64,000 nt of DNA from Fulvia fulva. Taxonomy: Eukaryota > Ascomycota > Dothideomycetes > Mycosphaerellales > Mycosphaerellaceae. A program made the translations under genes and the position numbers. Position 1 is the stretch's first letter. Every line of letters begins with the position of its first letter. The notes below the pieces were generated by a model that worked only from the letters and a program-made list of their open reading frames with translations, did not search any database and was not told where the DNA came from. Where the stretch lies: contig NC_063012.1 in assembly GCF_020509005.1 (NCBI RefSeq), positions 9,610,001 to 9,674,000 of the forward strand, given 5' to 3'. Shown here in pieces: positions 2,340 to 46,038 of the stretch.

Positions 2340-5300
2340 CCCCGCACGTGCTTCTATGTCAGCAAGGACATACTAGAATCCGACTGGGAGGTAGTGTACT
2401 ACGCAGACGAAGAAGGCGGGGGCGATATTACCTCCCTCCACGTGGGTAGCACCTGGATACACAACCTATACATGCAACCGCCAGCCTCGAGGTCTAGCCG
2501 CGACCTAGGGGTCTGCAGACACCTAGACAGTGCGCTCAAGAGACAAGGGTGCCACATCGTAGTAGGAGACTTCAACATACACCACCCTTCCTGGGAAAGC
2601 CTTATGCAGCCGCACCCTATAGCCGACGAAGTACTCGACTTGATGGCGAGCAACGCAATTGCCCTCAATACCCCGAAGGACCTGGGCACCTGGAAGAGAG
2701 GGGGACTCCAAGGCACGATCGACCTCTCCTGGATCTCAGATAGCCACTACCACACGGTAACCTACTGTGGGATCGAACATGAACTCGAGGCGTCGTCAGA
2801 CCACATGCCAGTCAGGACCTCTATTGCGACACAGATACAACGCACACCAGCGAGAACCCCTAAGCCAAACTGGGGAAAGGCCCACTGGGCCAACATCCAG
2901 GCGTACCTCGATGACTCCAAGAGGCTAGTCCAGATCGCGCAGCAGCAATACAACAGTAAAGACGAGATAGACGAAGCAGTCCAGGGGTTGACAGACGAAA
3001 TAAGAAAAGCGACCTCACTCCACGTTCCGCTTGCCCAACCAACGACATGGTCCAAACCATACTGGACGCCGGAGTGCACTGCGGTAGTAAGAGAAGCAAG
3101 GAGAGCCCGCCGGGTGTGGACGAGCAGCCATAGCGAGGAGGCCTGGAACGTATACAGGGAGGCATGCCAACAGAAGAAAGCCATAATACGGAGGGAGAAA
3201 GCAGTCGGCTGGAGGGCCACAGTGGAAGAAATCGCCGGCAAGCCAGAGAGGATGTGGAAGCTAGCGAAATGGGCCCGACAGGACCCTACACAGGGCCCCT
3301 CCTTCTCTATCCCAGCGCTACAATCGCCTAGTGGCCCGGTTAGCGACCCCGAGGCCAAGGCGCGTCTACTGGCTAGCAAGTTCTTCCCACCCCCAGTCGA
3401 GGCTGATCTAAGCGACATAAACAGCTCTACTCCCCTAGCCCCTAGCATCGCGGTCTAACAGGAGGTGTCCGAGGGAGAAGTCACCGCTGTGCTGAGGAAG
3501 TTGCCGGCGAAGAAAGCCCCGGGGCCGGATGGGATCCCAAACGAGCTACTAAAGAAGTGTAGAGATCAACTAGCCCCAGCAGTTGCAGCGATCTTCAACG
3601 CCTGCCTACAGACCGGATACCACCCGATAGCTTTTAAACAATCGACGACAGTGGTCCTACGCAAGCCGCAGAAGGAAGACTATACGCAGGTGAAGTCGTA
3701 CCGCCCAATTGCGCTCCTTAACACTCTTGGGAAGGCGCTTGAGAAGCTGGTTGCAACGAGACTCTCCGAGGCGACAGAGGAACACTCCCTACTCCCGGAC
3801 ACCCAGATGGGTGCGCGCCCACAGCGATCGACGCTATCCGCGATGGAACTTATCACCTCTCAGGTAAAGGCCATCTGGTATAAGAATAGGGACAAGGTGG
3901 CTTCCTTACTTAGCCTAGACATATCGGGAGCCTTCGACTACGTGTCACACCCGCGGCTTCTCTACATCCTAAGGTCGAAAGGACTCCCTGAGTGGCTTGT
4001 CAACTTCGTACGGTCCTACCTCCAAAACCGCAGTACGTCGATCCTGGTCGGCCAGTACAGAAGCCCATTTCAAGCAGTCCACACTGGAATCCCGCAAGGC
4101 TCAACGCTAGCACCTATTCTGTTCCTCTTCTTTATGGCGACGCTGCTCCCAGCCCTAGAATCCCAGAACACCGCTGCGAGCGGCTTCGTAGACGACACAA
4201 ACATCCTAGCGTGGTCTTCCTCGACTGAGGAGAACTGTAGGCTACTAGAAGAGAAGCACAAGATCTGCGAGGACTGGGCTAGGAGGCACGGGGCTCGGTT
4301 TGCCCCAGAAAAGTACAATCTGATACACTTTACGCGCCGGCCACGGTTCCACAATATGCAAGCTTCTATCCAGATACAGGGGCACACGACTAACCCGGCA
4401 AATCAGCTCAGGATCCTCGGACTATGGGTGGACCCGGCGCTACGGTGGAGGAAGCACGTACAGGCAATATTACGGAAAGCTGAACAGAATATAGCATCAT
4501 GCCAGAGGCTCACTGCGTCCACATGGGGGGCGGACTTCCGGCAGTCACGACTTCTATATACGGCTATTGTACGGCCAGTCCTTACCTATGGCAGCCAAGT
4601 GTGGTCCTTAGGCGAGAGGGCCTGCCCATCGAAGGGACTCGTCGCGCCGCTAGCGAAGATCCAAAACCAATGCCTAAGGAAGGTCACCGGGGCATATAAG
4701 TCGACACCAACGAGGATGCTTGAGCACGAGACCGCTATACCGCCGATCGACCTATACATCCAGGGACTACGGACCTCCTACTTAGGCAAGTCGGCACAGT
4801 ACCCAGTACAGAAGGTCATCGCCAGTGCAGTCGCAAGGGCCCGCGAATCAGTACCAGCGCATAAGGGCATTCGACCCGGAAACGAGCCGAACTACCGGGC
4901 AAGGGACGAACAGCTAGCAACACAATGGGAAGGTGAGAAATCGTTTGTAGAGCAACTATGGAAAGAGAGGTGGAACAACCAGGTTGTAGGGCATAGTGGA
5001 CGCCCTCAGCCAGCGGGACAACCTAAGGAATGGTCAGCTACAAAATCCGCGGTCAAGCACCCCCCGAAGCTCATCCACTACCGCCTTACGAGGGCACAGA
5101 GTAGCATAGCAACCCAACTGCGAAGCGAACACATCGGCCTCCAGGGGTACCTATCATGGAGGAAGGTCCCAGGATACACGAATACTAGCTGCCCCTGCGG
5201 CTATCGCTCCCAGAACGTACGGCACGCACTCCTCGTCTGTCCGAGGTGGTCGCTAGGAAGGGGGGAGTGGATGGTAAAGGCGAGGAACCGGACGATTGGG

Positions 5301-5447
5301 GCACTTCTTAACAACGCTGAAGACCTACGGCGCATTACGAACTGGATACTAGAGAAGGGCTGGCTAGAACAGTACCGCCTAGTAGGAGCAGTGCAGGAAG
5401 AGAGGACACGACGCAGCGCGACGAGACCGGCTAGGAGCGGGGGCTAA
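2340..5447 (+). pseudogene. LINE-1a ORF2: endonuclease + reverse transcriptase, one nonsense codon
   Basis: One reading frame runs from the truncation point to 5447, broken only by TAA at 3456-3458. The next open stretch is in the same frame, and CAA to TAA is the change RIP makes. The frame first reads PRTCFYVSKDI and VYYADEEGGGD, mid-endonuclease sequence. The endonuclease shows VGDFNIHHPSW and EASSDHMPV, the Asp/Asn and Ser-Asp-His motifs of the APE-type family. RT motifs follow: SLDISGAFD, GIPQGSTLAP and FVDDTNILAWS (Val where Ala is usual). Near the C-terminus is a zinc knuckle, CPCGYRSQNVRHALLVC. It would nick target DNA and copy LINE RNA there. The N-terminal endonuclease is missing, so it cannot be autonomous. 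Confidence 0.9.
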
Positions 5448-5519
5448 CGGGGTAGTGACATGGACTACGTACGTTCAGAGGGAAAGCTAATCTAGACAAG
5501 GAGTAGTCGGGGGCGGGAA

Positions 5520-5544
5520 GGGTTTTCACCTATTCGGGTTTCCC
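5520..5544 (+). promoter_or_regulatory. Conserved LINE 3' stem-loop
   Basis: GGG (5520-5522) pairs with CCC (5542-5544) and ACC (5528-5530) with GGT (5537-5539), leaving an asymmetric internal loop of five bases (TTTTC) against two (TT). The same fold, with a changed but still paired outer stem, is present in the other two LINE families here (28173-28199 and 41632-41657). A role in recognition of the RNA by the reverse transcriptase is inferred. Confidence 0.6.
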
Positions 5545-5610
5545 TTTGTACATAACAATAGATATATACCTGCATAGGCCGGATAGGGTCCTAGAACAGG
5601 GGAATGACAA

Positions 5611-5639
5611 ATCTATCTATCTATCTATATTATATAGCT
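5611..5639 (+). repeat. LINE-1a (TCTA)n tail and right target-site duplication
   Basis: The 3' UTR ends with AATGACAA followed by about four TCTA units that run into the duplicated target (5625-5639). The tail is a short tetranucleotide repeat, not poly(A). Confidence 0.85.
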
Positions 5640-14897: not shown

Positions 14898-17332
14898 GAT
14901 AGATAGATTTGTCATTCCCCTATTCTAGGACCCTATCCGGCCTATATAGGTATATATCTATTATTATATACAAAGGGAAACCCGAATAGGTGAAAACCCT
15001 TCCCGCCCCCGACTACTCCTTGTCTAGATTAGCTTTCCCTCTGAACGTACGTAGTCTATGTCACTACCCCGTTAGCCCCCGCTCCTAGCCGGTCTCGTCG
15101 CGCTACGTCGTGTCCTCTCTTCCTACACTACTCCTACTAGGCGGTACTGTTCTAGCTAGCCCTTCTCTAGTATCTAGTTCGTAATACGCCGTAGGTCTTT
15201 AGCGTTATTAAGAAGTGCCCTAATCGTCCGGTTCCTCGCCTTTGCCATCTACTCCCCCCTTCCTAGCGACCACCTCGGATAGACGAGGAGTACGTACCGT
15301 ACGTTCTAGGAGCGATAGCCGTAGGGGCAGCTAGTATTCGTGTATCCTAGAACCTTCCTCTATAATAGGTACCCCTAGAGGCCGATGTGTTCGCTTCGTA
15401 GTTGGGTTACTATACTACTCTATGCCCTCGTAAGGCGGTAGTAGATAAGCTTCGGGGGGTGCTTGACCGCGGATTTTGTAGCTAACTATTCCTTAGGTTG
15501 TCCCGCTAGCTAAGGGCGTCTACTATGCCCTACAACCTAGTTGTTCCACCTCTCTTTCTATAGTTGCTCTATAAACGATTTCTTACCTTCCTATTATGTT
15601 ACTAGCTGTTCGTCCCTTACCTAGTAGTTCGGCTCGTTTCCGGGTCGAATGCCCTTATACGCTAGTACTGATTCGCGGGCCCTTACGACTGTACTAGCGA
15701 TGACCTTCTATACTAGGTACTGTGCCGACTTGCCTAAGTAGGAGGTCCGTAGTCCCTAGATATATAGGTCGATCGGCGGTATAGCGGTCTCGTACTTAAG
15801 CATCCTCGTTAGTATCGACTTATATACCCCGGTGACCTTCCTTAGGCATTAGTTTTAGATCTTCGCTAGCGGCGCGACGAGTCCCTTCGATAGGCAGGCC
15901 CTCTCGCCTAAGGACTACACTTAGCTACTATAGGTAAGGACTAGCCGTATAATAGCCGTATATAGAAGTCGTAACTACCGGAAGTCCGCCCCCTATATAG
16001 ACGTAGTGAGCCTCTAGTATAATGCTATATTCTGTTTAGCTTTCCGTAATATTGCCTATACGTGCTTCCTCTACCGTAGCGCCGGGTCCACCTATAGTCC
16101 GAGGATCCTGAGCTAATTTACCGGGTTAGTCGTATACCCCTATATCTAGATAGAAGCTTGTATATTATAGAACCGTAGCCGGCGCGTAAAGTGTATTAGA
16201 TTGTACTTTTCTAGGGCAAACCGAGCCCCGTGCCTCCTAGCCTAGTCCTCGTAGCAAGGAAGGAATCGTATTTAGTAAGCTAGCTACGAGATAAGGTGAC
16301 AAGTCTTAACCGCGCTTTCCTACTTATCTAGTACTACCGTATAGCCTCGTTTCGAGAGGTTAGCCCGGAGCAAAAGCTTCCCTCTACGCCCTCCCTCCCT
16401 ATTTACACCTTAAGCCAATATCTACCTCTATAGGCCTAAGCCCTTTAGTGCTCTCTATTGACCGATATACGCATCCGTCCTCTCGGGCTATATAGATAGT
16501 GTTAGCCGTCGCTACTAGTATATACTACGCCCTAGGTTTTGACGCCCTTCGCGTTACCGTAGCCTATCTCTAGAAAGCGGCCGTCTATGCCTCGCAGGTT
16601 TGCTCGGGGTACACACTACGCCGGGCAGCGTACTCCTTACGTTTCTACCTACTAACTAATATAAAGTTCCTTATCGCCCTACCCTCGATCCTCCCCGATT
16701 ATAGAACTAATCCACTTGTATTATACGTCTTTTCCCCGTCCTAATAGCCGTCTTTTCCTTGCTTAGGCTATCGTCTTTTCCTCGTCGCAATCTACTATAT
16801 CAGACTAGGTGCGTTATGTAGCGGGATAGGTAGTGCCTTAGGCAAAACCCTCGTTCCTATACCGGGTGTTTAATAGGCCCTTATAGGCTTCGTCGCGTGT
16901 CTACCTACCTACCGCATTGCCCGCTAGTAAACACTAGATTGTTTCGTAGTCCGCTCGACGCCGTTATATAGTCCGCTCAGTTGTTGTTCTATAGTCCGCT
17001 CGTCTAATGTTCGTCGCTTAGCCCGCTCGGTTTACGGTCTCCGGAGGTGAAAATTCTATACTTATACTAGAGGTGTCCTATCGAGCGTATAGGCCACGGT
17101 TCCGCGCCCTTCTTATACGTAGAAAGAAGAGGGACTCGCTCCCGACACGAGTACACGCTCGTCGGATAGTTTTCATACCCGTTTTGCTAGTAGTCCTCTA
17201 TTCGCCGCGGCTTCGCCTACGTTACGCGCCCGTCGCGCCTACGACGCTCTAGCGTAAGAATACTTGGCTCTCTCGTAGCTAGACGAGAGGTTCGTAGCCG
17301 ACACTACGTACAGGTGATTCTCGTCGTCGACC
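14898..17332 (-). mobile_element. LINE-1 chimera 1: truncated LINE (14898-16254) joined to the 1078-bp module (16255-17332)
   Basis: The minus strand reads module, then LINE ORF2 from the middle of RT to the 3' UTR and a TCTA tail. The duplication AACTACTATATA flanks the whole (14886-14897 and 17333-17344), so both parts arrived in one event. The LINE part corresponds to LINE-1a from about 4265 onward. Heavily RIPed; no ORFs remain. Confidence 0.92.
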
Positions 17333-22630: not shown

Positions 22631-25414
22631 GATAGATAGATTTGTTATTCCCCTATTCTAGGACCCTATCCGGCCTATATAGGTATATATCTATTGTTAT
22701 ATATAAAGGGGAACCCGAATAGGTAAAAACCCTTCCCGCCCCCGACTACTCCTTATCTAGTTTAGCTTTCCCTCTGAACGTACGTAGTCTATATCACTAC
22801 CCCGTTAGCCCCCGCTCCTAGCCGGTCTCGTCGCGCTACGTCGTGTCCTCTCTTCCTATACTGCTCCTACTAGGCGGTACTGTTCTAGCTAGACCTTCTC
22901 TAGTATCTAGTTCGTAATGCGCCGTAGGTCCTTAGCGTTATTAGGAAGTGCCCTAATCGTCCGGTTCCTCGCCTTTGCTACCTACTCCCCCCTTCCTAGC
23001 GACTACCTCGGATAGACGAGGAGTACGTACCGTACGTTCTAAGAGCGATAGCCGTAGGGGCAGCTAATATTCGTGTATCCTAGAACCTTCCTCTATAATA
23101 GGTACCCCTAGAGGCCGATATACTCGCTTCGTAGTTAGGTTACTATACTACTCTATACGCTTGTAAGGCGGTAGTAGATAAGCTTCGGGGGGTACTTAAC
23201 CGCGGATTTTGTAGCTAACTATTCCTTAGGTTGTCCCGCTAGCTAAGGGCGTCTACTATACCCTACAACCTAGTTGTTCTACCTCTCTTTCTATAGTTGC
23301 TCTATAAACGATTTCTTACCTTCCTATTATATTACTAGCTATTCGTCCCTTGCCCGGTAGTTCGGCTCGTTTCCGGGTCGAATGCCCTTATACGCTAGTA
23401 CTAATTCGCGGGCCCTTACGACTATACTAGCGATGACCTTCTATACTAGGTACTATACCGACTTGCCTAAGTAGGAGGTCTATAGTCCCTAGATATATAG
23501 GTCGATCGGCGGTATAGCGGTCTCGTACTTAAGTATCCTCGTTAGTATCGACTTATATACCCCGGTAACCTTCCTTAGGCATTAGTTTTAGATCTTCGCT
23601 AGCGGCGCGACGAGTCCCTTCGATAGGTAGGCCCTCTTACCTAAGGACTATACTTAGCTACTATAGGTAAGGACTGGCCGTATAATAGCCGTATATAGAA
23701 GTCGTAACTACCGGAAGTCCGCCCCCTATATAGACGTAGTGAGCCTCTAGTATAATGCTATATTCTGTTTAGCTTTCCGTAATATTGCCTATACGTACTT
23801 CCTCTACCGTAGCGCCGGGTCCACCTATAGTCCGAGGATCCTAAGCTGATTTGCCGAGTTAGTCGTGTGCCCCTATATCTAGATAGAAGCTTGCATATTA
23901 TAGAACCGTGGCCGGCGCGTAAAGTGTATTAGATTGTACTTTTCTAGGGCAAACCGAGCCCCGTACCTCCTAGCCTAGTCCTCGTAGATCTTATGCTTCT
24001 CTTCTAGTAGCCTATAGTTCTCCTTAGTCGAGGAAGACTACGCTAGGATGTTTATATCGTCTACGAAGCCGCTCGTAGCGGTGTTCTGGGATTCTAGGGC
24101 TAGGAGCAGCGTCGCTATAAAGAAGAGGAACAGAATAGGTACTAGCGTTAAGCCTTACGGGATTCTAGTATAGACTGCTTAAAATGGGCTTCTATACTAG
24201 CTAACTAGGATCGACGTACTACGGTTTTAGAGGTAGGACCGTACGAAGTTAATAAGCTACTTAGGGAGTCCTTTCGACCTTAGGATATAGAGTAGCCGCG
24301 GGTATAACACGTAGTCGAAGGCTCCCGATATGTCTAGTAAGGAAGGAATCGTATTTAGTAAGCTAGCTACGAGATAAGGTAACAAGACTTAACCGCGCTT
24401 TCCTACTTATCTAGTACTACCGTATAGCCTCGTTTCGAGAGGTTAGCCCGGAGCAAAAGCTTCCCTCTACGCCCTCCCTCCCTATTTACTCCTTAAGCTA
24501 ATATCTACCTCTATAGGCCTAAGCCCTTTAGTACTCTCTATTGACCGACATACGTATCCGTCCTCTCGGGCTATATAGACAGTATTAGCCGTCGCTACTA
24601 GTATATACTACGCCCTAGGTTTTAACGCCCTTCGCGTTACCGTAGCCTATCTCTAGAAAGCGGCCGTCTATACCTCGTAGGTTTGCTCGGGGCACACACT
24701 ACGCCGGGTAGCGTACTCCTTACGTTTCTACCTACTAACTAATATGAAGTTCCTTATTACCCTACCCTCGATCCTCCCCGATTATAGAACTAATCTACTT
24801 GTATTATACGTCTTTTCCCCGTCCTAATAGCCGTCTTTTCCTTGCTTAGGCTATCGTCTTTTCCTCGTCGTAATCTACTATATTAGACTAGGTGCGTTAT
24901 ATAGCGGGATAGGTAGTACCTTAGGCAAAACCCTCGTTCCTATACCGGGTATTTAATAGGCCCTTATAGGCTTCGTCGCGTATCTACCTACCTACCGTAT
25001 TGCCCGCTAGCAAATACTAGATTGTTTCGTAGTCCGCTCGACGCCGTTATATAGTCCGCTTAGTTGTAATTCTGTAGTCCGCTCGTCTAATGTTCGTCGC
25101 TTAGCCCGCTCGGTTTACGGTCTCCGGAGGTAAAAATTCTGTACTTATACTAGAGGTGTCCTATCGAGCGTATAGGCTACGGTTCCGCGCCCTTCTTATA
25201 CGTAGAAAGAAGAGGGACTCGCTTCGACATAAGTATACGCTCGTCGGATAGTTTTTATACCCGTTTTACTAGTAGTCCTCTATTCGCCGCGGCTTCGCCT
25301 ATATTACGCGCCCGTCGCGCCTACGACGCTCTAGCGTAAGAGTACTTAGCTCTCTCGTAGCTAGACGAGAGGTTCGTAGCCGACACTACGTATAGGTGAT
25401 TCTCGTCGTCGACC
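22631..25414 (-). mobile_element. LINE-1 chimera 2: truncated LINE (22631-24337) joined to the module (24338-25414)
   Basis: The duplication TATACTTCTATATA (22617-22630 and 25415-25428) flanks both parts together. The LINE part starts at a point matching LINE-1a about 3916 (CTAGACATATC, in RT motif A). The module is one base shorter than the others because of a small change near 25220, and is heavily RIPed. Confidence 0.92.
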
Positions 25415-26097
25415 TATACTTCTATATATAGTTTTTCTTTATATAACTCCGTTTACTCCCGTTCCTCTAGTAGCGTAGGTTTGTCTAACGGCTCTATACT
25501 TCCTTCGATAGGTTACTCGTTACTAGGTATCTCTTCGACTAGGACTCTATTATCTAGTTCCGAGTCGACGTTACTACGTACTTTGTCCTCTACTTACTTA
25601 AGATAGCTATTAGTAGTGTTAATACGGCCTACTAGCTTATTAGTAATCTTCTTATAGTGTTCCTTAGTTATAGTGTTGTCTAAGGCTATTTATAGTATCT
25701 AGATACAGGCCTTAGCGTCTTCCTAGGATGTCTAATATATTATAGTATCGGCTTATATCTTATCTCGTTCGGTCGCTATATCCTATCGGTCTTCGAAGAC
25801 GACATTATATTCTTCTTAGAGCTTCGCGAGTTTAGAGTCGACTTGCTCGCGTTCCTCGCGATAGCGTCGTACCTAGGCTCGAGAGTAGGCGAGTATGACT
25901 TTCTAGTAAGCGTACCTATCTATAGTACTCTTAACTTTAAGATAAATAGTATTAGGCTATAAGGTAACTACTCTCTTAAATACTTTAGTATTGGCGATCT
26001 TATAGTTTATTAGATCGTACTCGAAGTCTATATCGTTAAATTCGATCTAGTCTATACGAGGAGGCGCTATACTATTAATAAACTATATAAAGTCGAT
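25415..26097 (-). pseudogene. Gypsy-B gag-like remnant
   Basis: The minus strand gives a charged, helical sequence such as VRRYREEREQVDSKLAKL and EEYNVVFED between stops, resembling a Gypsy gag coiled region. It is directly continuous with integrase sequence once the LINE at 22631 is removed, so protease, RT and RNase H are absent. Confidence 0.45.
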
Positions 26098-27175
26098 GGT
26101 CGACGACGAGAATCACCTGTACGTGGTGTCGGCTACGAACCTCTCGTCTAGCTACGAGAGAGCCAAGTATTCTCACGCTGGAGCGTCGTGGGCGCGACGG
26201 GCGCGCAACGTAGGCGAAGCCGCGGCGAACAGAGGACTACCAGCAAAACGGGTATGAAAACCATCCGACGAGCGTGTACTCGTGTCGGGAGCGAGTCCCT
26301 CTTCTTTCTACGTGTAAGAAGGGCGCGGAACCGTGGCCTATACGCTCGACAGGACACCTCTGGTATGAGTGCAGAATTTTCACCTCCGGAGACCGCAAAC
26401 CGAGCGGGCTGAGCGACGAACATTGGACGAGCGGACTACAGAACAACAACTGAGCGGACTATGCAACGGCGTCGAGCGGACTACGAAACAATCTGGTGTT
26501 TGCCAGCGGGCAATGCGGTGGGTAGGTGGACACGCGACGAAGCCTGTAAGGGCCTGTTGAACACCCGGTATGGGAACGAGGGTTTTGCCTGAGGCACTGC
26601 CTGTCCCGCTACACAACGCACCTAGTCTGACATGGTAGATTGCGACGAGGAAAAGACGATAGCCTGAGCAAGGAAAAGACGGCTGTTAGGACGGGGAAAA
26701 GACGTACAATGCAAGTGGATTAGTTCTGTGATCGGGGAGGATCGAGGGCAGGGTGATAAGGAACTTCATATTGGTTAGTAGGTGGAAACGCAAGGAGTAC
26801 GCTGCCCGGCGTGGTGTGTGCCCCGAGCAAACCTGCGAGGCATGGACGGCCGCTTTCTAGAGATAGGCTGCGGTAACGCGAAGGGCGTCAAAACCTGGGG
26901 CGTGGTGTACACTGGCAGCGACGGCTGACACTGTCTGTACAGCCCGAGAGGACGGATGCGCATGTCGGTCAATAGAGAGCACTAAAGGGCTTAGGCCTAT
27001 GGAGGTGGATATTGGCTTAAGGAGCAAACAGGGAGGGAGGGCGTAGAGGGAAGCTTTTGCTCCGGGCTAACCTCTCGAAACGAGGCTACACGGTGGTGCT
27101 AGATGAGTGGGAAAGCGCGGTTAAGACTTGTCACCTTATCTCGTAGCTAGCTTGCTAAATACGATTCCTTCCTTG
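26098..27175 (+). ncRNA. 1078-bp 5' module, intact reference copy (WEIRD-like)
   Basis: It starts GGTCGACGACG and ends CCTTCCTTG. All short ORFs inside it are identical in the copy at 44946-46023, but they differ in frame and strand and none resembles a known protein. It folds well on paper: ACGAC/GTCGT and GAGAAT/ATTCTC enclose two hairpins at the 5' end (26103-26189). Further hairpins are at 26301-26321 and 27074-27084. Four GAGCGGRCTR motifs lie between 26402 and 26483, and three GGAAAAGACG motifs between 26649 and 26704. No poly(A) or LTR ends are seen. Best read as a DNA copy of a structured RNA; size and setting match the WEIRD sequence reported with Magnaporthe LINEs, from memory. Confidence 0.7.
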
Positions 27176-27176
27176 C

Positions 27177-28085
27177 CAAGACAAGATCCCAAAGAGAATT
27201 GCAGATCCCATCAGCAGAGCCCAAGCCTCCTGTCTGAAAAAGGTGCTTGGAGCATACAAGTCAACTCCAACAAGGGTGGTCGAAATGGAGTCTGGCTCCC
27301 CACCAGCCAAGCTCTACCTTCAAGGGTTGAGATACCAGTATGCAGGAAAGACGTCTGCATACCCAGCCCAGCTAGTAATCCAGAAGGCAGTCAACAAAAT
27401 CAGGAGCCAGTGCACAAGAAGGCACAGACAAGCAAGACCCAATCCAGCCCCACAGAAGCAGCAGGACCTGCAGAAGTTCAAAGAACTAACAGAACAGCTG
27501 CACCTAGCCCAGCAGGAACAGGACAGAAGGGCTCAAGGGAGAGGATCAGCAGCCAGCCAAGGGAAGAAGCAACAGTCTCTAGCTGAAAGGATGGCAGGAC
27601 TCCTCTGGAAGACTGAATGGACAAGAACCCCACAGAGGCCAGGAACCCCAAAGGCACTCCAACAGTTTGGTAGCCACAACTACCTACTGTACTCAGACCT
27701 GACCAGGTCAGAAGCAAGCATAGCAATACAAATCCGCTCTGAACACATCGGAGTCAGGGCATACCTGCATCAGAGAAAAGTCCCAGGTATCGAAGACAAG
27801 AGTTGCCCATGCGGCTACCTGTCCCAGAATGTCGAACATAGACTTCTGGTTTGCAAAGAATGGAGTACAGGGAGAGGTGAATGGAGGGCAAGGGCAAGGA
27901 ACAGAAACTTCCAAGCCATGATCAGCAATAAGGGAGACCTCCAGAGAATTACAAGGTGGATCATCCACCAAGGATTTTTGGAGCAGTTCTCTCTTACTAG
28001 GGAAACAGAGAGATGGATTGAGGAGAGAAAGAAGGAGGAGGAGAGCAGGAAGAGGGGGACAACTCTAGGGTTGCAGACAAGGTAG
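27177..28085 (+). pseudogene. LINE-3 ORF2 C-terminal part
   Basis: Open from the junction to TAG at 28083-28085 without a natural start. It begins with KIPKRIADPISRAQASCLKK and continues VLGAYKSTPTRVVEMESG, homologous to the region after RT in LINE-1 and LINE-2. The zinc knuckle CPCGYLSQNVEHRLLVC is near residue 220 of the fragment. The endonuclease and RT are missing because of 5' truncation, so it is a fragment without catalytic domains despite the clean frame. Confidence 0.85.
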
Positions 28086-28172
28086 TCAGAGGCTAACCAC
28101 CATGACACTAGTGCACCCTAATGGAAGGAAAACTGAGAACTCATGGCAAGGAAGCTATTAGAGAAGGAGAGG

Positions 28173-28199
28173 AGGTTTTTACCTAGGAATAGGTTTCCT
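28173..28199 (+). promoter_or_regulatory. Conserved LINE 3' stem-loop (LINE-3)
   Basis: AGG (28173-28175) pairs with CCT (28197-28199) and ACC (28181-28183) with GGT (28192-28194), with the same five-against-two internal loop as in LINE-1. The outer pair differs from LINE-1 but remains paired. Confidence 0.6.
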
Positions 28200-28283
28200 A
28201 CCTTATGCAGTAACATATATAGACATAAACCCGCATGGGCCGGAGGGCACCACAACGGGTAAATGAATTATCTATCTATCTAT

Positions 28284-28806
28284 CTATATAAAGTCGATAC
28301 CTTTACTATCGTCTTCGTAAGACGAGAGACGAGTATCTTCGATATCTAGTCGTACTAGCTTTTTGTCTTCTACCTTACTACCCTCGTGTCGTATTAAAGA
28401 CTAAGGCGTATTATTAGTTATAGGAATTTATAAATCGGGTATATATAGATAAGAGAGAGTAGACCTATCTGTTCTGTTTCCTTACTTATACTATATCCTA
28501 CTTACGCGGTCCGGATATATACTATCGCTAAGGATCGAGTTGAGCTAGTTCTAAAGTTCTAGGTTCTAAGGGTCTACGGTTAGTAACTCGGCTAAGATAG
28601 AGGGCGTGTAATATAGATATTACTATCGCTAAATAGTAGTGCTAGGTCGTGTACTTAAAGGTCGTAGGGGAGGGCGTCGAGAGGCCTCGTCGGCGTTCTC
28701 TATTATTGCGAATTAATCGTACGGTCTAGTACTATCGTACTATCTCGGGCGGTCTTAGTATCGCACGTAGAGGTTAGCTCTCTACTCGTAGGTAGGCGTA
28801 ACTAAC
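28284..28806 (-). other. Gypsy-B 5' leader / gag start, RIPed
   Basis: This lies between the LINE-3 chimera and the 5' LTR. No protein signal can be followed. On the minus strand the bases next to the LTR, GTTAGTTACGCC, occupy the primer-binding position, but the tRNA was not recognised. Confidence 0.4.
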
Positions 28807-36078: not shown

Positions 36079-36443
36079 TATTAAATAGGTATAGTATATA
36101 TATATACGGAAGTTAGGACACGTAGTAGGGAAGGAAGAAGGACTAATATAGTATATAAAGGTATATAGTAGAATAGTATTTAGTACTAAAGGTGTCTCTA
36201 CTATCGGTATAGAGACTACGTCTCTTATACCTATATAGAGGAATATTGCTCTAGTCCTAGTTCTATTTTACTACGCCTTATCGGTTTTACCGATATCTTA
36301 TCCTACGACGGCAGGTCCTCCGACAGTCTCGTATTAACTAGCTAAGCGACTTTAGGTCCTCTAAGTCGCTCCTACTATTCGTACGGTATCTCGGTAGTAT
36401 TACCGTACTATTATCTTGACTAGCTTAGTATATACTAAGTTAG

Positions 36444-38549
36444 GTCGACGACGAGAATTATCTATACGTAGTGTCGGCTACGAACCTCTCGTCTTACTAC
36501 GAGAGAGCTAAGTATTCTTACGCTAGAGCGTCGTAGGCGCGACGGGCGCGTAACGTAGGCGAAGCCGCGGCGAATAGAGGACTACTAGTAAAACGGGTAT
36601 AAAAACTATCCGACGAGCGTATACTCGTGTCGGGAGCGAGTCCCTCTTCTTTCTATATATAAGAAGAGCGCGGAACCGTAGCCTATACGCTCGATAGGAC
36701 ACCTCTAGTATAAGTATAGAATTTTTACCTCCGGAGCCCGTAAACCGAGCGGGCTAAGCGACGAATATTAGACAAGCGGACTATAGAGTAATAACTAAGC
36801 GGACTATACGACGGCGTCGAGCGGACTACGAAACAATCTAGTATTTACTAGCGGGCAATACGGTAGGTAGGTAGACACGCGACGAAGCCTATAAGGGCCT
36901 ATTAAGTACCCGGTATAGGAACGAAGGTTTTACCTAAGGTACTACCTATCCCGCTACATAACGTACCTAGTCTAATATAGTAGATTACGACGAGGAAAAG
37001 ACAATAGCCTAAGTAAGGAAAAGACGGCTATTAGGACGGAGAAAAGACGTATAATATAAGTAGATTAGTTCTATAATTAGGGAGGATCGAGGGTAGGGTA
37101 ATAAGGAACTTTATATTAGTTAGTAGGTAGAAACGTAAGGAGTACGCTACCCGGCGTAGTATGTACCCCGAGCAAACCTACGAGGTATAGACGGCCGCTT
37201 TCTAGAGATAGGCTACGGTAACGCGAAGGGCGTCAAAACCTAGGGCGTAGTATATACTAGTAGCGACGGCTAATACTATCTATATAGCCCGAGAGGACGG
37301 ATACGTATATCGGTTAATAGAGAGTACTAAAGGGTTTAGGCCTATAGAGGTAGATATTAGCTTAAGGAGTAAATAGGGAGGGAGGGCGTAGAGGGAAGCT
37401 TTTACTCCGGGCGAACCTCTCGAAACGAGGCTATACGGTAGTACTAGATAAGTAGGAAAGCGCGGTTAAGACTTATTACCTTGTCTCGTAGCTAGCTTAC
37501 TAAATACAATTCCTTCCTTACCCTAAACCGGACGTAGGCCGCGAACCTTAGACGGATACTAGGAGCCTATAAGATAACGCTAACGAGAGTAGCGGAGGTA
37601 GAGATAGGGTCCCCCCTAATTAAATATTACATTAAGGGAATGAGGATCTAATACGCTAGAAAGATGGCGGATTATCTAGTATAATAAGCTATTCGGGACT
37701 CTACGGAGAAGATCGCTAGGAGGTAAGACCGACTACCTAGCCTTAGGGTACGTTAAAGCTAAAAGTAAGACGACCTACGTACGTTTAAAGTCGTTAAGCG
37801 AACCTGGGAGTAGCTAGAGAGGAAGGAGGAGGAGGAAAAGGCACGGAGGAAACAGGGTAATAAGGTAAAGACGTAAAGCCTCGTAGAGTAGGTAGCGGGC
37901 TACCTTTAGGAATAGGAATAGAAAGAGAATCCCCTACTAAATCGGGGACCCCTAGCCTTACGCCCCTTATAGAGACATAACTACCTACTCTACCGTAACC
38001 TAATAAGGGCCGAAGTAATTATTACGATATAGATTAGGTCCGAATATATCGGGTTAAGGGCCTACCTATATAGAAGGAAAGTCCCGGACGTATATAGCCT
38101 AGTATACTAGTATAACTATCCGTTATAGAACCCGGAGTATATAATACTACGGTGCCCGTAATAGGTAGGTAGACGAGGCTAGTAGAGAGCTAAGGTAGTA
38201 AGACGCGACTACTAGTTAATCGTAACGGACAAGCGAGACGTAAAACGGATAGTATAGTAGATACTATAGTAGGGCTTTCTTAAATAGTTCGCGCTAGCTA
38301 GCGAGACGGAGGAGTAGATAGAGAAGAGGCGGGAGGTTAAGGGGGTATAGATAGGGTAGTTATTAGGGTAGGCCTATAATACTAGTATACCCTTAATAAG
38401 GAAAACACGAAAGAAGGTAAGGTTAAGAACGTATAGGAGAGGAGAGGGGGTTTTTACTCTATAATACAAGTTTCCCCTTTATAACTAGAAGTAGGTAGTA
38501 TAGCTATATAGGCTAATAGGCTCTATAACAGCTTAATGAACAATATATA
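36444..38549 (+). mobile_element. LINE-2 chimera 1: module (36443/4-37520) plus LINE-2 3' part, RIPed
   Basis: Sits in the right LTR of Copia-C with the duplication ATATACTAAGTYAG on either side of the composite insertion (before 36444 and around 41346-41359). The LINE part starts at 37521 within the region encoding RVLGAYK in the intact LINE-2 and ends in CAGCTTAATGAACAATATATA. Its tail was later entered by the LINE-1 chimera at 38550. Confidence 0.88.
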
Positions 38550-41331
38550 GATAGATAGATAGATTTGTTATTCCCCTGTTCTAGGACCCTATCCGGCCTA
38601 TATAGGTATATATCTATTGTTATATACAAAGGGAAACCCGAATAGGTGAAAACCCTTCCCGCCCCCGACTACTCCTTATCTAGATTAGCTTTCCCTCTAA
38701 ACGTACGTAGTCTATATCACTGCCCCGTTAGCCCCCGCTCCTCGCCGGTCTCGTCGCGCTACGTTATATCCTCTCTTCCTATACTGCTCCTACTAGGCGG
38801 TACTATTCTAGCTAGCCCTTCTCTAGTATCTAGTTCGTAATACGCCGTAGGTCCTTAGCGTTATTAAGAAGTGCCCTAATCGTCCGGTTCCTCGCCTTTA
38901 CTATCTACTCCCCCCTTCCTAGCGACTACCTCGGATAGACGAGGAGTACGTACCGTACGTTCTAGGAGCGATAGCCGTAGGGGTAGCTAGTATTCGTGTA
39001 TCCTAGAACCTTCCTCTATAATAGGTACCCCTAGAGGCCGATATGCTCGCTTCGTAGTTAGGTTGCTACACTACTCTATACTCTCGTAAGGCGGTAGTAG
39101 ATAAGCTTCGGGGGGTGCTTAACCCCGGATTTTATAGCTAACTATTCCTTAGGTTGTCCCGCTAGCTAAGGGCGTCTACTATACCCTACAACCTAGTTGT
39201 TCTACCTCTCTTTCTATAGTTGCTCTATAAACGATTTCTTACCTTCCTATTATATTACTAGCTATTCGTCCCTTGCCCGGTAGTTCGGCTCGTTTCCGGG
39301 TCGAATGCCCTTATACGCTAGTACTAATTCGCGGGCCCTTACGACTATACTAGCGATGACCTTCTATACTAGGTACTATGCCGACTTGCCTAAGTAGGAG
39401 GTCCGTAGTCCCTAGATATATAGGTCGATCGGCGGTATAGCGGTCTCGTACTTAAGTATCCTCGTTAGTATCGACTTATATGCCCCGGTGACCTTCCTTA
39501 GGCATTAGTTTTGGATCTTCGCTAGGGGCGCGACGAGTCCCTTCGATAGGTAGGCCCTCTCGCCTAAGGACTATACTTGGCTACTATAGGTAAGGACTGG
39601 CCGTATAATAGCCGTATATAGAAGTCGTAACTACCGGAAGTCCGCCCCCTATATAGACGTAGTAAGCCTCTAGTATAATGCTATATTCTGTTTAGCTTTC
39701 CGTAATATTGCCTATACGTACTTCCTCTACCGTAGCGCCGGGTCTACCTATAGTCCGAGGATCCTAAGCTAATTTGCCGGGTTAGTCGTATGCCCCTATA
39801 TCTAGTAAGGAAGGAATCGTATTTAGTAAGCTAGCTACGAGATAAGGTAACAAGTCTTAACCGCGCTTTCCTACTTATCTAGTACTACCGTATAGCCTCG
39901 TTTCGAGAGGTTAGCCCGGGGTAAAAGCTTCCCTCTACGCCCTCCCTCCCTATTTGCTCCTTAAGCTAATATCCACCTCTATAGGCCTAAGCCCTTTACT
40001 GCTCTCTATTGACCGATATACGTATCTGTCATGGTCTCCCCACAGAGTGTACAGAAGGTGGGGACAGAAGAGCCTCAGAGCGCTCAGAAGTCGTCAAGAA
40101 GTGACAGTCCAGCTTGGTGTATGAACGCCAAGAATCACATACCCCGCAACATTCACTACGGGACCCAGCCCTCCAGATTCACCCCTCTACCAAACCTTGA
40201 AGCACGTGGAAGACTCGGAACGTAGGGCAGGTTGGAATAAGGTTTTGAGCAAAGCTGCTAAGCGCGGCTTCGCACGGGTTAGCCCTGTTGATGCGGGGAC
40301 ACGCACTCGCGAGGGTCGCGTATAAATATCTGGCCTTCCCCAGGCCTCTCTTGCTTTCTTCGTCTTTTGTTTTGTGTAGCAATCATACCATACCCTTTTG
40401 CATCTGCACTTCGCACCTGCATTCTCGCTTTCACCCTTACATCTCACAGGCCAGGCTCTCGCCCTGACAGTATCCGTCCTCTCGGGCTATATAGACAGTA
40501 TTAGCCGTCGCTACTAGTATATACTACGCCCTAGGTTTTAACGCCCTTCGCGTTACCGTAGCCTATCTCTAGAAAGCGGCCGTCTATACCTCGTAGGTTT
40601 GCTCGGGGCACACACTACGCCGGGTATCGTACTCCTTACGTTTCTACCTACTAACTAATATAAAGTTCCTTATTACCCTACCCTCGATCCTCCCCGATTA
40701 TAGAACTAATCTACTTGTATTATACGTCTTTTCTCCGTCCTAATCGCCGTCTTTTCCTTACTTAGGCTATTGTCTTTTCCTCGTCGCAATCTACTATATT
40801 AGACTAGGTACGTTATGTAGCGGGATAGGTAGTACCTTAGGTCAAACCTTCGTTCCTATACCGGGTACTTAATAGGCCCTTATAGGCTTCGTCGCGTGTC
40901 TACCTACCTACCGTATTGCCCGCTAGTAAACACTAGATTGTTTCGTAGTCCGCTCGACGCCGTTATATAGTCCGCTTAGTTGTAATTCTGTAGTCCGCTC
41001 GTCTAATGTTCGTCGCTTAGCCCGCTCGGTTTACGGTCTCCGGAGGTAAAAATTCTATACTTATACTAGAGGTGTCCTATCGAGCGTAGAGGCCACGGTT
41101 CCGCGCCCTTCTTATACGTAGAAAGAAGAGGAACTCGCTCCCGACACGAGTACACGCTCGTCGGATAGTTTTTATACCCGTTTTGCTAGTAGTCCTCTAT
41201 TTACCGAGGCTTCGCCTACGTTACGCGCCCGTCGCGCCTACGACGCTCTAGCGTAAGAGTACTTGGCTCTCTCGTAGCTAGACGAGAGGTTCGTAGCCGA
41301 CACTACGTATAGGTAATTCTCGTCGTCGACC
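38550..41331 (-). mobile_element. LINE-1 chimera 3: truncated LINE (38550-39805) joined to the module (39806-41331, with an inserted solo LTR)
   Basis: AACAATATATA flanks it (38539-38549 and 41332-41342); it landed in the tail of the LINE-2 chimera. The module measures 1526 bp here, and removing the solo LTR with one 5-bp duplication (448 bp) gives exactly 1078. The LINE part begins at a point matching LINE-1a about 4371. Both parts are RIPed. Confidence 0.9.
40027..40469 (+). repeat. Un-RIPed solo LTR (443 bp)
   Basis: TGTCA..TGACA ends and a perfect five-base duplication GTATC (40022-40026 and 40470-40474) mark a solo LTR left by recombination between the LTRs of a former full element. TATAAATA at 40321-40328, downstream of a GC-rich stretch, is a probable promoter and sets the orientation. 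It is unrelated to the other LTRs here. It lacks RIP although the surrounding module is heavily RIPed, so it arrived later. An apparent 64-codon ORF inside is not credible. Confidence 0.92.
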
Positions 41332-41631
41332 AACAATATATATATATATACTAAGTCAGTCTTAGTACCGTACAACATGCCTACTAACCTATATTTATAG
41401 TATTTACTAAGGTTTCTCCGGAGAAGGTTACGAAGACTAATCGACCTATAGTTATTATTAAATAGGTACGAGTTACGTAGTAGTAGAAGACGGCGGATCA
41501 TACGAAAGACGAAGAAGGACCTAATAGGATAGCGTTTATCTATATATAGATAGATAGATAGATATTTCATTAAGCTGTTGTAGTGCCCTTTGGCCTATGC
41601 AGCTATGCTATCTTGTTTTTGTATATATAGA

Positions 41632-41657
41632 GGGGAAACCGTGTTGGTGAAAACCCC
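41632..41657 (-). promoter_or_regulatory. Conserved LINE 3' stem-loop (LINE-2)
   Basis: On the + strand GGGG (41632-41635) pairs with CCCC (41654-41657) and ACC (41638-41640) with GGT (41646-41648). The two-against-five internal loop is the same as in LINE-1 and LINE-3, with a longer outer stem. Confidence 0.6.
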
Positions 41658-41746
41658 TCCTCCTTCCCGCCTGTCTTTTCCTCCTCGTTGTCGTCTTAAA
41701 TTTCCCTTGTTAGGGGTACGCTAGTGTCATGGGCCTGCCCTGATGA

Positions 41747-44700
41747 CTACCCTATCTGCAACCCCCCTCGCTTCCGCCTCTTGTCTATCCACTCCTCCGT
41801 CTCGCTCGCGAGGCTAAACTGCTGGAGGTATCCCTGCTGTAGTATCCACCGAGAGATTCGGCGAATGTTGCCTTTGTCCCTAATAATTGACTTGTAGTCT
41901 CTCCTTCCCGCTTGGTGCCTCCAATTTCCCCTGCCTCTCGCCCACTGCGGGCATCGTAGTAGCATATGTTCTGGGTTTTGCGATGGGTAGCCACACTGGC
42001 AGGCTGGGCTATAGATGTCTAGTGCGCGTCTTCTGAACAGGTAGGCCCTTAATCCAATGTGTTCGGACCTGATTTGGATCGCTATGCTTGCTTCGGCCCT
42101 TGTCAGGTCCCTATATAGCTGGTAATTGTGTCTCTGGAAGGCTCGGAGCGCTATCGGGCCTGTTGTCTTAGGGGGCTTCCTTTTCCAGTCCTGCTCCCAT
42201 AGGCAGCTCGCTATCTGTTCCGCTAGGTTTTGGGTCTTAGCCTTGCTCCCGCCGGCCTGGCGAGTCCTACGCTCCTCCTCCTTTCGTGCTAGCCATTCGG
42301 TGCTTGCCTGTACGGCCGTAAAGGTCGTAAGGTCATCCTCTTTTTGGCTTGTCCTATATCCTGCCCCTCTCCGGTAGCGGCTTTCTATCTTATTCTTTGC
42401 CTCCTGGATCGTGGTTTGTGCTAGGTAACCTGTCGTCTTTGCCGCGTATTGAATTCTCATTCCCCGGATGTACTGGCCGATTGGTGGTATTCCTGTCTCC
42501 ATTTCTACCGTGCTTATTGACGTTGTCTTGTATGCGCCTAGTACCCTACGTAGGTTGCCTGCCTGTGTCCTGTTTAGGGGTTGCTCTATCCGTTTCGGGA
42601 TCGGCTTGCCTGCGCCTCCTGTTCCCCAAATCTGTGCCCCGTACAACATAGCTGGTCTGACGATCGCCTTATACATTACTCTTGCCTTGTCGAATGTTGC
42701 TCCCCATGTAGATGCCGTAAGCCTCTTTATCGAGGCTTCATTGACTTGCGCTCGACTCTGGGCTTTCTTAATCTGTACATTCCAGCTTAGCTTCGGGTCG
42801 AGCCAGATCCCTAGTACTCGTAGCTCCGCTGATGGCTTGGTCTCGTAGCCTTGGATTCTTACCGCCGCCTTCATATTATGGTGTGTTCTCGCTTTACTGA
42901 AGTGTATAAGTTGGTACTTTTCAGGGGCGAACCGGGCACCATGCTTCTTTGCCCACTCCTCGCATTTCTTGTGCCTATCTTCAAGGAGGCGACAGTTCTC
43001 TTCTGTCGAGTCTGACCAGGCTAGGATGTTTGTATCGTCTACGAACCCCGATGCTGAGGTTTGCGGAGAGGTGAGTAGGGGGATTAGATCCGACATAAAT
43101 ATTAGAAACAGGATAGGGGAGAGAGTAGATCCCTGAGGTATTCCAGTCTCTGCCTTCACCGGGTCGGACGTGTACCTTCCTAGGACTAGGTATGTCGTCC
43201 GTTCCTGGAGAAAGGAGAAGACGAACGACGTTGCCCACTGGGGGATGCCTTTCTGCTGTAGGATATGTATTAGCCTTTGGTGTGAGACGTTGTCGAAGGC
43301 CCCTGCGATGTCGAGGGATAGTAAGGACGCCGCTCGGTTCCTGCCGTAGTGCCAGAGGGTCTGGATTTGCTCCGTAATTAGCTCCATTGCTGTTAGTGTC
43401 GATCGCTGGCTTCTTCCCCCCATCTGTGTTGCTGGGAGTACGTGGTTGTCCTCGGCAAGCTGCGTAAGTCTCTGGGCTACTATCTTTTCTAGGACCTTCC
43501 CTATCGTATTTAGAAGTGCTATTGGTCTGTACGACTTGGGCTGAGTATAGTCTTCCTTCTGTGGCTTGCGTAGCACTACTGTCATAGACTCTCTGTACGG
43601 CTTCGGGTGATACCCTAGCCGTAGGCACGCGGTAAATAGGTTTGCAAGGCTCGGCGCGATCTCTTCTCTACACTCTTTTAGCAGTACGTTTGGTATCCTG
43701 TCTGGGCCTGGGGCTTTTCGTCCCTTTAGCTTACTTATGACTCCTGTTACTGTGTTAGGGCTAACCGCCCAATCCATGTCCAGGGGTTCCGGGTATGTGC
43801 TCGGGTCGATGTCCGTAAGGTCTGCCTCTACTTGCGTCGAAAAGAAATGGTCGGCTAACGCTTTTGCCTTGCCCCGGGGCGTAGCCTGGGCAATCCCTTC
43901 GCGGTCTACGATTGGGGGGAAGTGAGGGGCTTGTTGCTCTTCAGGTAGTCGTGCCCATTTAGCAAGTCTCCACATCTGTTCCGGGTTTTCTGTAACGAGC
44001 CCGATCGTCGCTCTCCAGTCCTGCAGCTTATCGCGTCTTATCTGTGCCTTCTTCTCTTGTGTCGCGTGGCAGTATTGCTCCCACGTCTCTTGGGTGTGCT
44101 CCTTCGTCCACTGTCGCCTTGCCCTTCTAGCCTCCCTTACCTTCGTAGAGCATTCAGGGGTCCAGAAGGCCTTCTGCTGCGTTGAGGGCCGGAGTAACGG
44201 CGTGTATTGTTCCGCTGCTTGCCATATGACCGAGGTAATCTGTTCCGCTGCTTGATCTAGCTGAGCTGTCGTCTCGAGTTCTCTATGCTGTGGTAGGTTC
44301 GCTATTAGGAAGCCTCTTATGTCGTCCCAGCGTGCCTTCTTCCAGTTACGGCGTGGTTCGTTTGCTGGCTCCTCTATCGCCTTCACCCCTAGCGTCGTTT
44401 GGATAGGGATATGGTCTGAGGAGGCTTCTAGCGCGTAGTTCGGTCGGCATTGGACTAGTCTCTCTTCAAGTTCTCGTGATAGAAAGCATAGGTCGATCGT
44501 GCTTGCACTAGTACGGGCCTTCCACGTCTCTGTTCCCTTTGGTGTTACTAAGGCCATTCCGTAGCGTGCGGTTATGTCCAGTAGCTTCCCCCCTAGAAAT
44601 GCGTGCGGGGGAGTGAATTCGAGTCCCCACTGTGGGTGGTGGAGGTTGAAGTCGCCGAGGAGTACTTGCTTCGTGTCTTGGCTTAGGGTCCGCTCTAGGT

Positions 44701-44943
44701 GGGCGAGGGTTCCTAGTTCCCTACTCGTCCGACCCCGCGGTGGCGGGTTGTAAACGTTATGGATCTGGATAGGGCCTTGTGTCGTGTCGATCTGGATTGA
44801 TGTTATGTCTCCTAGGTTGCCCTGCTGCGGTAGTATAACCTTCCACGACTCAAGGTCTATAGTCTTGCTTACGTATATACATGTCCTCGGGATGACGCCT
44901 CGTTGGCCCGCGATTACGGTGTGGTATCTCCGGTCATTACAAG
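41747..44943 (-). CDS. LINE-2 ORF2: endonuclease-reverse transcriptase, 5'-truncated but open
   Basis: The frame is open from the junction to the stop at 41747, about 1065 codons. The first in-frame ATG is at 44557, but homology continues upstream (TCIYVSKTIDLESWKVILPQ and GDFNLHHPQW), so ATG is not the native start. The endonuclease keeps LEASSDHIPI. RT keeps LSLDIAGAFDNVSH, GIPQGSTLSP and FVDDTNILAWS, with all three catalytic Asp present. The C-terminal knuckle is CQCGYPSQNPEHMLLRC. The N-terminal endonuclease, including the first metal-binding residues, is lost, so target nicking is probably dead while polymerase could be sound. Encoded behind the module with no evident start. Confidence 0.85.
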
Positions 44944-44945
44944 TG

Positions 44946-46023
44946 CAAGGAAGGAATCGTATTTAGCAAGCTAGCTACGAGATAAGGTGACAAGTCTTAA
45001 CCGCGCTTTCCCACTCATCTAGCACCACCGTGTAGCCTCGTTTCGAGAGGTTAGCCCGGAGCAAAAGCTTCCCTCTACGCCCTCCCTCCCTGTTTGCTCC
45101 TTAAGCCAATATCCACCTCCATAGGCCTAAGCCCTTTAGTGCTCTCTATTGACCGACATGCGCATCCGTCCTCTCGGGCTGTACAGACAGTGTCAGCCGT
45201 CGCTGCCAGTGTACACCACGCCCCAGGTTTTGACGCCCTTCGCGTTACCGCAGCCTATCTCTAGAAAGCGGCCGTCCATGCCTCGCAGGTTTGCTCGGGG
45301 CACACACCACGCCGGGCAGCGTACTCCTTGCGTTTCCACCTACTAACCAATATGAAGTTCCTTATCACCCTGCCCTCGATCCTCCCCGATCACAGAACTA
45401 ATCCACTTGCATTGTACGTCTTTTCCCCGTCCTAACAGCCGTCTTTTCCTTGCTCAGGCTATCGTCTTTTCCTCGTCGCAATCTACCATGTCAGACTAGG
45501 TGCGTTGTGTAGCGGGACAGGCAGTGCCTCAGGCAAAACCCTCGTTCCCATACCGGGTGTTCAACAGGCCCTTACAGGCTTCGTCGCGTGTCCACCTACC
45601 CACCGCATTGCCCGCTGGCAAACACCAGATTGTTTCGTAGTCCGCTCGACGCCGTTGCATAGTCCGCTCAGTTGTTGTTCTGTAGTCCGCTCGTCCAATG
45701 TTCGTCGCTCAGCCCGCTCGGTTTGCGGTCTCCGGAGGTGAAAATTCTGCACTCATACCAGAGGTGTCCTGTCGAGCGTATAGGCCACGGTTCCGCGCCC
45801 TTCTTACACGTAGAAAGAAGAGGGACTCGCTCCCGACACGAGTACACGCTCGTCGGATGGTTTTCATACCCGTTTTGCTGGTAGTCCTCTGTTCGCCGCG
45901 GCTTCGCCTACGTTGCGCGCCCGTCGCGCCCACGACGCTCCAGCGTGAGAATACTTGGCTCTCTCGTAGCTAGACGAGAGGTTCGTAGCCGACACCACGT
46001 ACAGGTGATTCTCGTCGTCGACC
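44946..46023 (-). ncRNA. 1078-bp 5' module, second intact copy
   Basis: Reverse-complement counterpart of 26098-27175 with the same ends and length. All ORFs spanning 45149-45973 read identically in both copies. It is joined at 44945/44946 to LINE-2 endonuclease sequence. Confidence 0.7.
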
Positions 46024-46038
46024 TTTATCTATATATAG

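Follow-up and report, generated by a model that had tools for sequence, protein, structure and literature searches.

A fixed 1078-nt noncoding module joined to 5′-truncated LINEs in Fulvia fulva, and a purine-pyrimidine-cytosine rule at the joints

Module–LINE chimeras in the 64-kb window

The window, by which we mean the whole 64-kb stretch of DNA analysed here, carries six copies of one module, each of them lying in LINE sense on the 5′ side of a LINE (Table 1). BLASTN of the copy at 26098-27175 (c3) against the window returned these six copies and none besides, with the same ends and at the places named in the original prediction, and the module measures 1078 bp as had been claimed there, the 1077 bp of c2 being due to one missing base. 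Same-strand LINE reverse-transcriptase sequence adjoins the 3′ side of each of the six modules and its start point differs each time, which bears out the claim of six different LINE breakpoints. Moreover, a single target duplication of 11-15 bp surrounds module and LINE as one unit in all six chimeras, again in agreement with the prediction; it is exact in five copies (12, 14, 15, 11, and 15 bp), and in c4 it is 14 bp long with one mismatch, its right half lying outside the nested c5 copy. The LINE tails in the window are of the (ATCT)n type and the insertion targets are CTATATA-like. Two LINEs of the window have no module and served as an internal comparison. The c3 sequence is one of ten copies that are 100% identical over 1078 nt among the best 40 of 656 genome candidates. 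Copia-type reverse-transcriptase-like frames, seen by translation on the minus strand at 7871-9448, lie outside the present finding.

Table 1. Features of the module–LINE chimeras and of the module-less LINEs in the window
Feature	Position	Strand	Remarks
LINE, 5′-truncated, without module	2340..5624	+	15-bp duplication 2325-2339 / 5625-5639
LINE (family B) joined to c1	14898..16254	-	3′ duplication 14886-14897, 12 bp
Module c1	16255..17332	-	93.1% to query
LINE (family B) joined to c2	22631..24337	-	3′ duplication 22617-22630, 14 bp
Module c2, 1077 nt	24338/9-25414	-	90.5% to query, one gap
Left target duplication of c3	26083..26097	+	15 bp, CTATATA type
Module c3, 1078 nt	26098..27175	+	query copy (BLASTN)
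LINE (here family A), 5′-truncated, joined to c3	27176..28283	+	(ATCT)n tail at end
Right target duplication of c3	28284..28298	+	
Target duplication of c4	36429-36442 / 41345-41358		14 bp, one mismatch
Module c4	36443..37520	+	88.2% to query
LINE joined to c4	37521..38540	+	3′ limit approximate; tail split by c5 insertion
LINE joined to c5	38550..39805	-	3′ duplication 38539-38549, 11 bp
Module c5	39806/7-41331	-	89-92% to query, split by insertion
Insertion inside c5	~40031-40471		~441 bp; labelled a solo LTR in the original prediction
3′ target duplication of c6	41535..41549	-	15 bp, partner 46024-46038
LINE (family C), 5′-truncated, joined to c6	41550..44945	-	3396 nt; open frame of 936 aa with RVT_1
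Module c6	44946..46023	-	100% identical to c3
Long LINE without module	54364..59346	-	4983 nt; 13-bp duplication; converted from minus-strand count

The LINEs carry the domains PF14529 and PF00078, and their best named relatives come from Stemphylium and Passalora fulva. According to the part of the genome paper available to us, Tad1 LINEs make up 16.3% of the Race 5 assembly published for Cladosporium fulvum (PMC9453070), and the LINEs joined to the module probably belong to Tad1.

Module ends and LINE partners across the genome

The genome searched comprises 67,169,167 bases on 14 contigs. A pattern that covers the final 21 nt of the module and tolerates mutations found 596 module 3′ ends and its reversed control none, while a stricter 24-mer found 200 intact ends genome-wide; in a DNA search with the module, the best 40 of 656 candidates were scored. 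The 148 of the 200 intact ends that were read consist of a first set of 110 (99 of the 100 places listed on contigs C1-C4, C1:8835401 being left out, plus 11 elsewhere) and of 38 on C5-C11. Directly joined to a LINE are 145 of the 148, and the other three run into a truncated second module, so that hits mostly free of LINEs, an outcome that would have spoken against the original prediction, are absent among the ends read. In the first set, ORF2-type protein matches follow 101 ends and eight further ends match 5′ LINE parts. Of these eight, L001 and L085 are tied to a LINE through L090; L004, L049, L070, and L071 through the long LINE near 59 kb of the window; and L011 and L086 through the 5′ part of a LINE whose first frame has 430 codons and whose ORF2 start matches at 62% identity. 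L022 passes from the module into a second, truncated module and then into a LINE. On C5-C11, L136 and L155 each continue into a truncated module that is itself joined to a LINE at its end (L153 and L156), and the other 36 ends join LINEs; the LINE of L145 was recognised by a 21-residue endonuclease match scoring 28.9 bits, where 20 shuffles reached 21.6 at most. No stand-alone copy of the module was found among the intact ends read, and the 102 copies whose last 190 nt match one of the two main haplotypes exactly (70 and 32) are all chimeric.

The module is also fixed in length. For 110 copies with an intact 3′ end the 5′ side was also retrieved; 102 of these measure exactly 1078 nt, and the remaining eight comprise five with small indels, one of full length with a mutated start, and two that are 5′-truncated. 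Hence ragged module ends are absent as well, the module being full length in 108 of 110 copies overall (30 of which had been chosen by whole-length score) and in 78 of the 80 for which the 3′ end was the sole criterion of choice. A target-like motif occurs in the flanks of 96 of 105 copies, compared to 14% of 2000 random 22-mers from the window.

Some copies are repeated at the DNA level. In L039 (G000:C1:8824500-8834499) and at C1:8835401, module plus LINE recur with a spacing of ~4.67 kb, and since the two copies within L039 have the same 5′ flank and joint, this is a duplication of DNA and not a pair of separate insertions. Three module ends at G000:C10:2914007, 2925203, and 2936399 are exactly 11,196 bp apart, apparently through tandem duplication. 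L006 and L025 have at least 20 nt of 5′ flank in common and different LINE breakpoints; these are perhaps two insertions into copies of one repeated target.

Both in the window and at the joints read across the genome, the LINEs fused to the module belong to several families. LINE 3′ ends counted by pattern genome-wide number 1184 for family B, 579 for C, 241 for E, and 49 for A. On contig C1, where partners were paired by position only, by nearest distance within 8 kb, a module lies upstream of 37 of the 99 family-C ends, 7 of 40 for family E, 2 of 15 for A, and 6 of 100 for B (B to 4.55 Mb). Forty-eight of the 100 modules listed on C1 stayed unpaired, partly because family B is covered to 4.55 Mb; below that position, with the lists of all four families present, 28 of 46 modules are paired and 18 are not.

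The LINEs themselves have a preferred 5′ end, at which 29 of the best 40 hits among 198 candidates start at the same base (AAAAATGGCG); in these best 40, six further hits start a few bases off and five extend at least 8 bases further. Flanks were read at eight such ends, six without the module and two with it past ~28 nt, and a direct joint between module and complete LINE, as a single master element would carry, occurs at none of them. Given that LINEs with a complete 5′ part exist without the module, the module is not LINE 5′ sequence. The ~28 nt between the module and the complete LINE 5′ part differ between the two copies concerned (L113 and L114, at the same loci as L011 and L086), and most of those in L113 are common to a module-less copy, L115. 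We read these two as cases in which the LINE RNA had started slightly upstream and a template jump followed; possibly the LINE 5′ end is instead variable or longer than its common start. The sequence upstream of the common LINE start in L113, L114, and L115 is also possibly a 5′ transduction by a LINE transcript begun upstream.

The donor motif and the joining step

For the breakpoint count, L034, L035, and L036 were dropped beforehand as loci identical to L026, L019, and L018, L015 and L039_1 were omitted as duplicated regions (here and in the haplotype count), and L041, L055, L074, L084, and L095 were omitted as having module sequence for context; 8 of 146 copies without context were left out, and breakpoints differing solely by C/T or G/A were counted as one. 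The 77 distinct clean donor breakpoints that result (74 in the LINE, 3 in the module) follow a sharp rule, since 68 of them fall at RY|C, the bar marking the joint, compared to 6.4% RYC among the triplets of two LINE sequences (binomial tail about 5e-71). Position -1 is a pyrimidine in 77 of 77 and position +1 a C in 74 of 77, and GC|C was found at 23 of 81 breakpoints before cleaning. The three module-to-module joints are all RY|C as well (AC|C, AT|C, and AC|C). Breakpoints are reused, one site 8 times and two sites 7 times, and families A, B, and C share one place within the reverse-transcriptase domain. Nine of the 77 sites break the rule, including a family-A site used 7 times, which is without the C. 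With TTG as the module end, microhomology cannot account for the RY at -2/-1, and therefore pairing alone fails to explain the motif.

It is quite probable, in our judgment, that the chimeras were made by template jumping during target-primed reverse transcription. This had been proposed as the simplest reading, and the ends read support it, with LINE-free hits, ragged modules, and a master element all absent from them; as read from the sequence, it draws on the chimeric structure, the enclosing duplications, fixed ends, and varied breakpoints, the RY|C rule, and the apparent module-to-module jumps. The LINE reverse transcriptase, which may be Tad1-like, would begin at a CTATATA-type target, copy the LINE RNA from its (ATCT)n tail, and stop once it has copied a C whose 5′ neighbours in the RNA are purine-pyrimidine. 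It would then resume on a second template, a separate noncoding RNA of ~1.08 kb that is presumably a discrete molecule ending in C, starting from the fixed 3′ end of this RNA and copying it to the 5′ end, after which the insertion would close. The joint C is probably shared, the last cDNA base (G) pairing with the 3′-terminal C of the acceptor RNA. Indeed, in the portion of the R2 study at hand, the R2 reverse transcriptase in vitro jumps best with an overhang of 1 to 2 nt complementary to the acceptor 3′ end (PMC8857657).

RNA cutting or ligation before reverse transcription is a serious rival, because cutting at RY|C would also yield the motif. The LINE RNA would be cut between Y and C, its 3′ piece ligated to the 3′ end of the module RNA, and the chimera then reverse-transcribed; in a mixed form, which we group with it, the enzyme would run off the cut LINE RNA and then jump end to end. 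A motif this sharp is as nuclease-like as it is stop-like, module-to-module fusions are compatible with ligation, and ligation is among the mechanisms named for human U6/LINE-1 chimeras in the text available to us (PMC13174262). However, ligation does not require the joint C, which is expected if one nucleotide pairs, and cut LINE RNAs should leave RY|C on module-less insertions too, whereas the 5′ ends of the two module-less truncated LINEs that have context are both off RY|C, one coming after GA|C and the other, near a reused site, not fitting. These two ends, which also speak against pausing as a general property, are too few to count and prove nothing by themselves. On balance we think ligation unlikely, and it is the enzyme, by our inference, that made the jump. 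The fixed donor end and the many acceptor sites would likewise suit trans-splicing, with the module as a spliced leader and LINE RNA supplying cryptic 3′ splice sites. At 3′ splice sites the joint is preceded by AG, yet none of the 77 joints has a purine at -1, a contradiction that leaves trans-splicing with practically no probability. Little better is the case for the module as the 5′ region of a LINE master whose internally deleted versions would be the chimeras, which we hold to be extremely improbable: the module is indeed always in LINE sense and always 5′, but it is joined to several LINE families, and the flanks contradict such a master, LINEs with a complete ORF1 start and an ORF2 start (match from residue 1) being module-less in six of eight and separated from the module by the differing ~28 nt in the other two.

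Source of the module RNA and comparison with known systems

The module appears to be the copy of a discrete RNA. It has 56% G+C, its longest stop-to-stop frame is 101 codons, and it ends in TTCCTTCCTTG without an (ATCT)n tail. No A-tract was found at any joint listed, so that this RNA was probably non-polyadenylated or was entered upstream of any tail. An Rfam search of the module returned no family (a single chance-level match, E 2.7), and its fold shows no excess stability over 25 dinucleotide shuffles (z about +1.8); a viroid-like rod was rejected, as the predicted fold is less stable than the shuffles. Telomerase RNA was also dismissed, for the template motif CTAACCC does not occur in repeated form and there is a single CTAACC at module base 970. 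A Pol III gene is contradicted by three internal T4 runs and the lack of any match to the A- and B-box consensus, and a SINE by the same lack of a Pol III box match together with the end without (ATCT)n. As for an rDNA spacer, the genome paper, in the part at our disposal, reports a 44.5-kb locus on Chr4 with five copies of the rDNA (PMC9453070), and if C4 is Chr4, as we assumed, the eight exact-end module copies on it form no array like that locus; an 18S query gave no match and was uninformative.

The aligned modules, 105 in number after omission of three copies without a recognised 5′ end, fall into 78 distinct sequences, of which 11 recur 2 to 10 times at 100% identity. Members of such identical groups mostly differ in breakpoint and often in LINE family, and the eight largest groups are 1 to 10 sites apart from each other, the largest being inflated by the choice of the first 30 loci for query likeness. 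One group (L056, L075, and L097) lies 8 sites off the commonest sequence, with seven of these in the CpA/TpG context typical of RIP, and it is this context that dominates the changes in old module copies. All four combinations are present at module sites 100/111 and 111/518, so that the variants do not form a single lineage unless changes recurred or sites recombined, perhaps by strand transfer from one module RNA to another.

Taken together, several genomic copies of the module seem to have acted as RNA sources. The original prediction had called for a search for a stand-alone source locus, which came up empty among the 148 of 200 intact ends, and for this reason chimeric copies are the likeliest sources, alleles of one lost or unassembled gene being possible too. 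Where the RNA comes from is a question apart from the joining step. It may have been made by one ordinary host noncoding RNA gene that the assembly does not contain, that an intron near the 3′ end divides, or that the isolate has lost, an explanation that is plausible, if short of probable. The fixed 5′ and 3′ ends and the noncoding character (frame of at most 101 codons) accord with such a gene, assemblies can have gaps, the reading spans 148 of the 200 intact ends and few of the ~400 mutated ones, and several alleles of one gene in the population could have served as sources. Against it stands the fact that every one of the 102 copies with the exact 190-nt end of either main haplotype is chimeric, and the eleven identical groups with differing breakpoints, together with the RIP-marked group of three (seven of eight differences), disfavour a single current gene. 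Alternatively, and this we put forward tentatively, the module could be a self-propagating noncoding RNA element without a stand-alone gene, its RNA being made from its own chimeric copies with a 3′ end set by internal signals, and could multiply solely as the second template of LINE reverse transcription. If so, it would be a retroposon with template jumping as its sole route of spread, and WEIRD, discussed below, may be another. An extrachromosomal replicon of viroid or satellite type caught by the LINE enzyme would account for the missing gene and for the fact that the ends read include no stand-alone DNA source, but is very improbable, given a fold no more stable than 25 shuffles, no Rfam ribozyme match, and RIP-type changes common to identical copies, which point to DNA sources.

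A comparable fusion has already been described in the rice blast fungus (PMC2104539, of which we draw on the accessible parts), and the likeness to MINE chimeras (WEIRD plus MGL LINE) suggested in the original prediction is borne out in structure. In both MINE of Magnaporthe grisea and the chimeras reported here, a full-length copy of a noncoding RNA of ~1.1 kb (1113 nt in MINE; 1078 here, where the RNA is presumed) lies 5′ of a truncated LINE, within enclosing duplications (10-20 bp and 11-15 bp, respectively), and both have reused breakpoints, tripartite forms, and no solo copy found (PMC2104539). Unlike MINE, the three tripartites seen here are module-module-LINE, the module ends number 596 versus 31 MINEs, and several LINE families and signs of several source copies are involved (PMC2104539). 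The breakpoint of MINE is stated as GCC*A/U, and no microhomology is reported in the sections available; its agreement with our rule is accordingly our own re-reading of Table 3, in which 10 of the 13 distinct sites are RYC and 12 are RYY when the joint base is counted as shared (PMC2104539). The module is not WEIRD, as far as primer sites can tell. Two WEIRD primer sequences taken from the portion at hand of PMC3978060 matched it at 11 of 20 bases, a level that shuffled modules also reach, and one MINE primer did no better; the proposed check against WEIRD thus gave no match above shuffles at either site. The chimeras work like MINE, but by the primer-site test their RNA is not WEIRD, to which it may be distantly related. 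An ordinary host noncoding RNA gene has been proposed as the source of WEIRD. That no stand-alone gene turned up among the ends read, along with signs of several sources, one of them RIP-marked, reopens the question of the origin of WEIRD and points to RNAs of this kind as possible mobile elements themselves.

In the literature on Cladosporium fulvum, as covered by titles, the openings of abstracts, and term searches of two genome papers, no such chimeras are reported. Fusion of a LINE with foreign RNA has mostly been reported as an occasional event; here more than a third of the family-C 3′ ends on C1 (37 of 99) have a module upstream, always the same RNA and with one donor motif. The U6/LINE-1 chimeras of mammals likewise have a full-length RNA in sense orientation on the LINE 5′ side within target duplications, whereas the module RNA is far longer, has no Rfam family, and contributes to a large share of one LINE family, and no counterpart of the sharp RY|C rule was seen in the available text on U6/LINE-1 (PMC13174262). 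Jumping by R2 in vitro, in the part of that work at hand, also takes place onto the acceptor 3′ end and is helped by complementarity of 1 to 2 nt, unlike which the jump proposed here is deduced from genomic joints and has a strong donor-site specificity (PMC8857657). The RYC rule, fitting the Magnaporthe table as well, offers a testable handle on template release by the LINE enzyme or on a nuclease.
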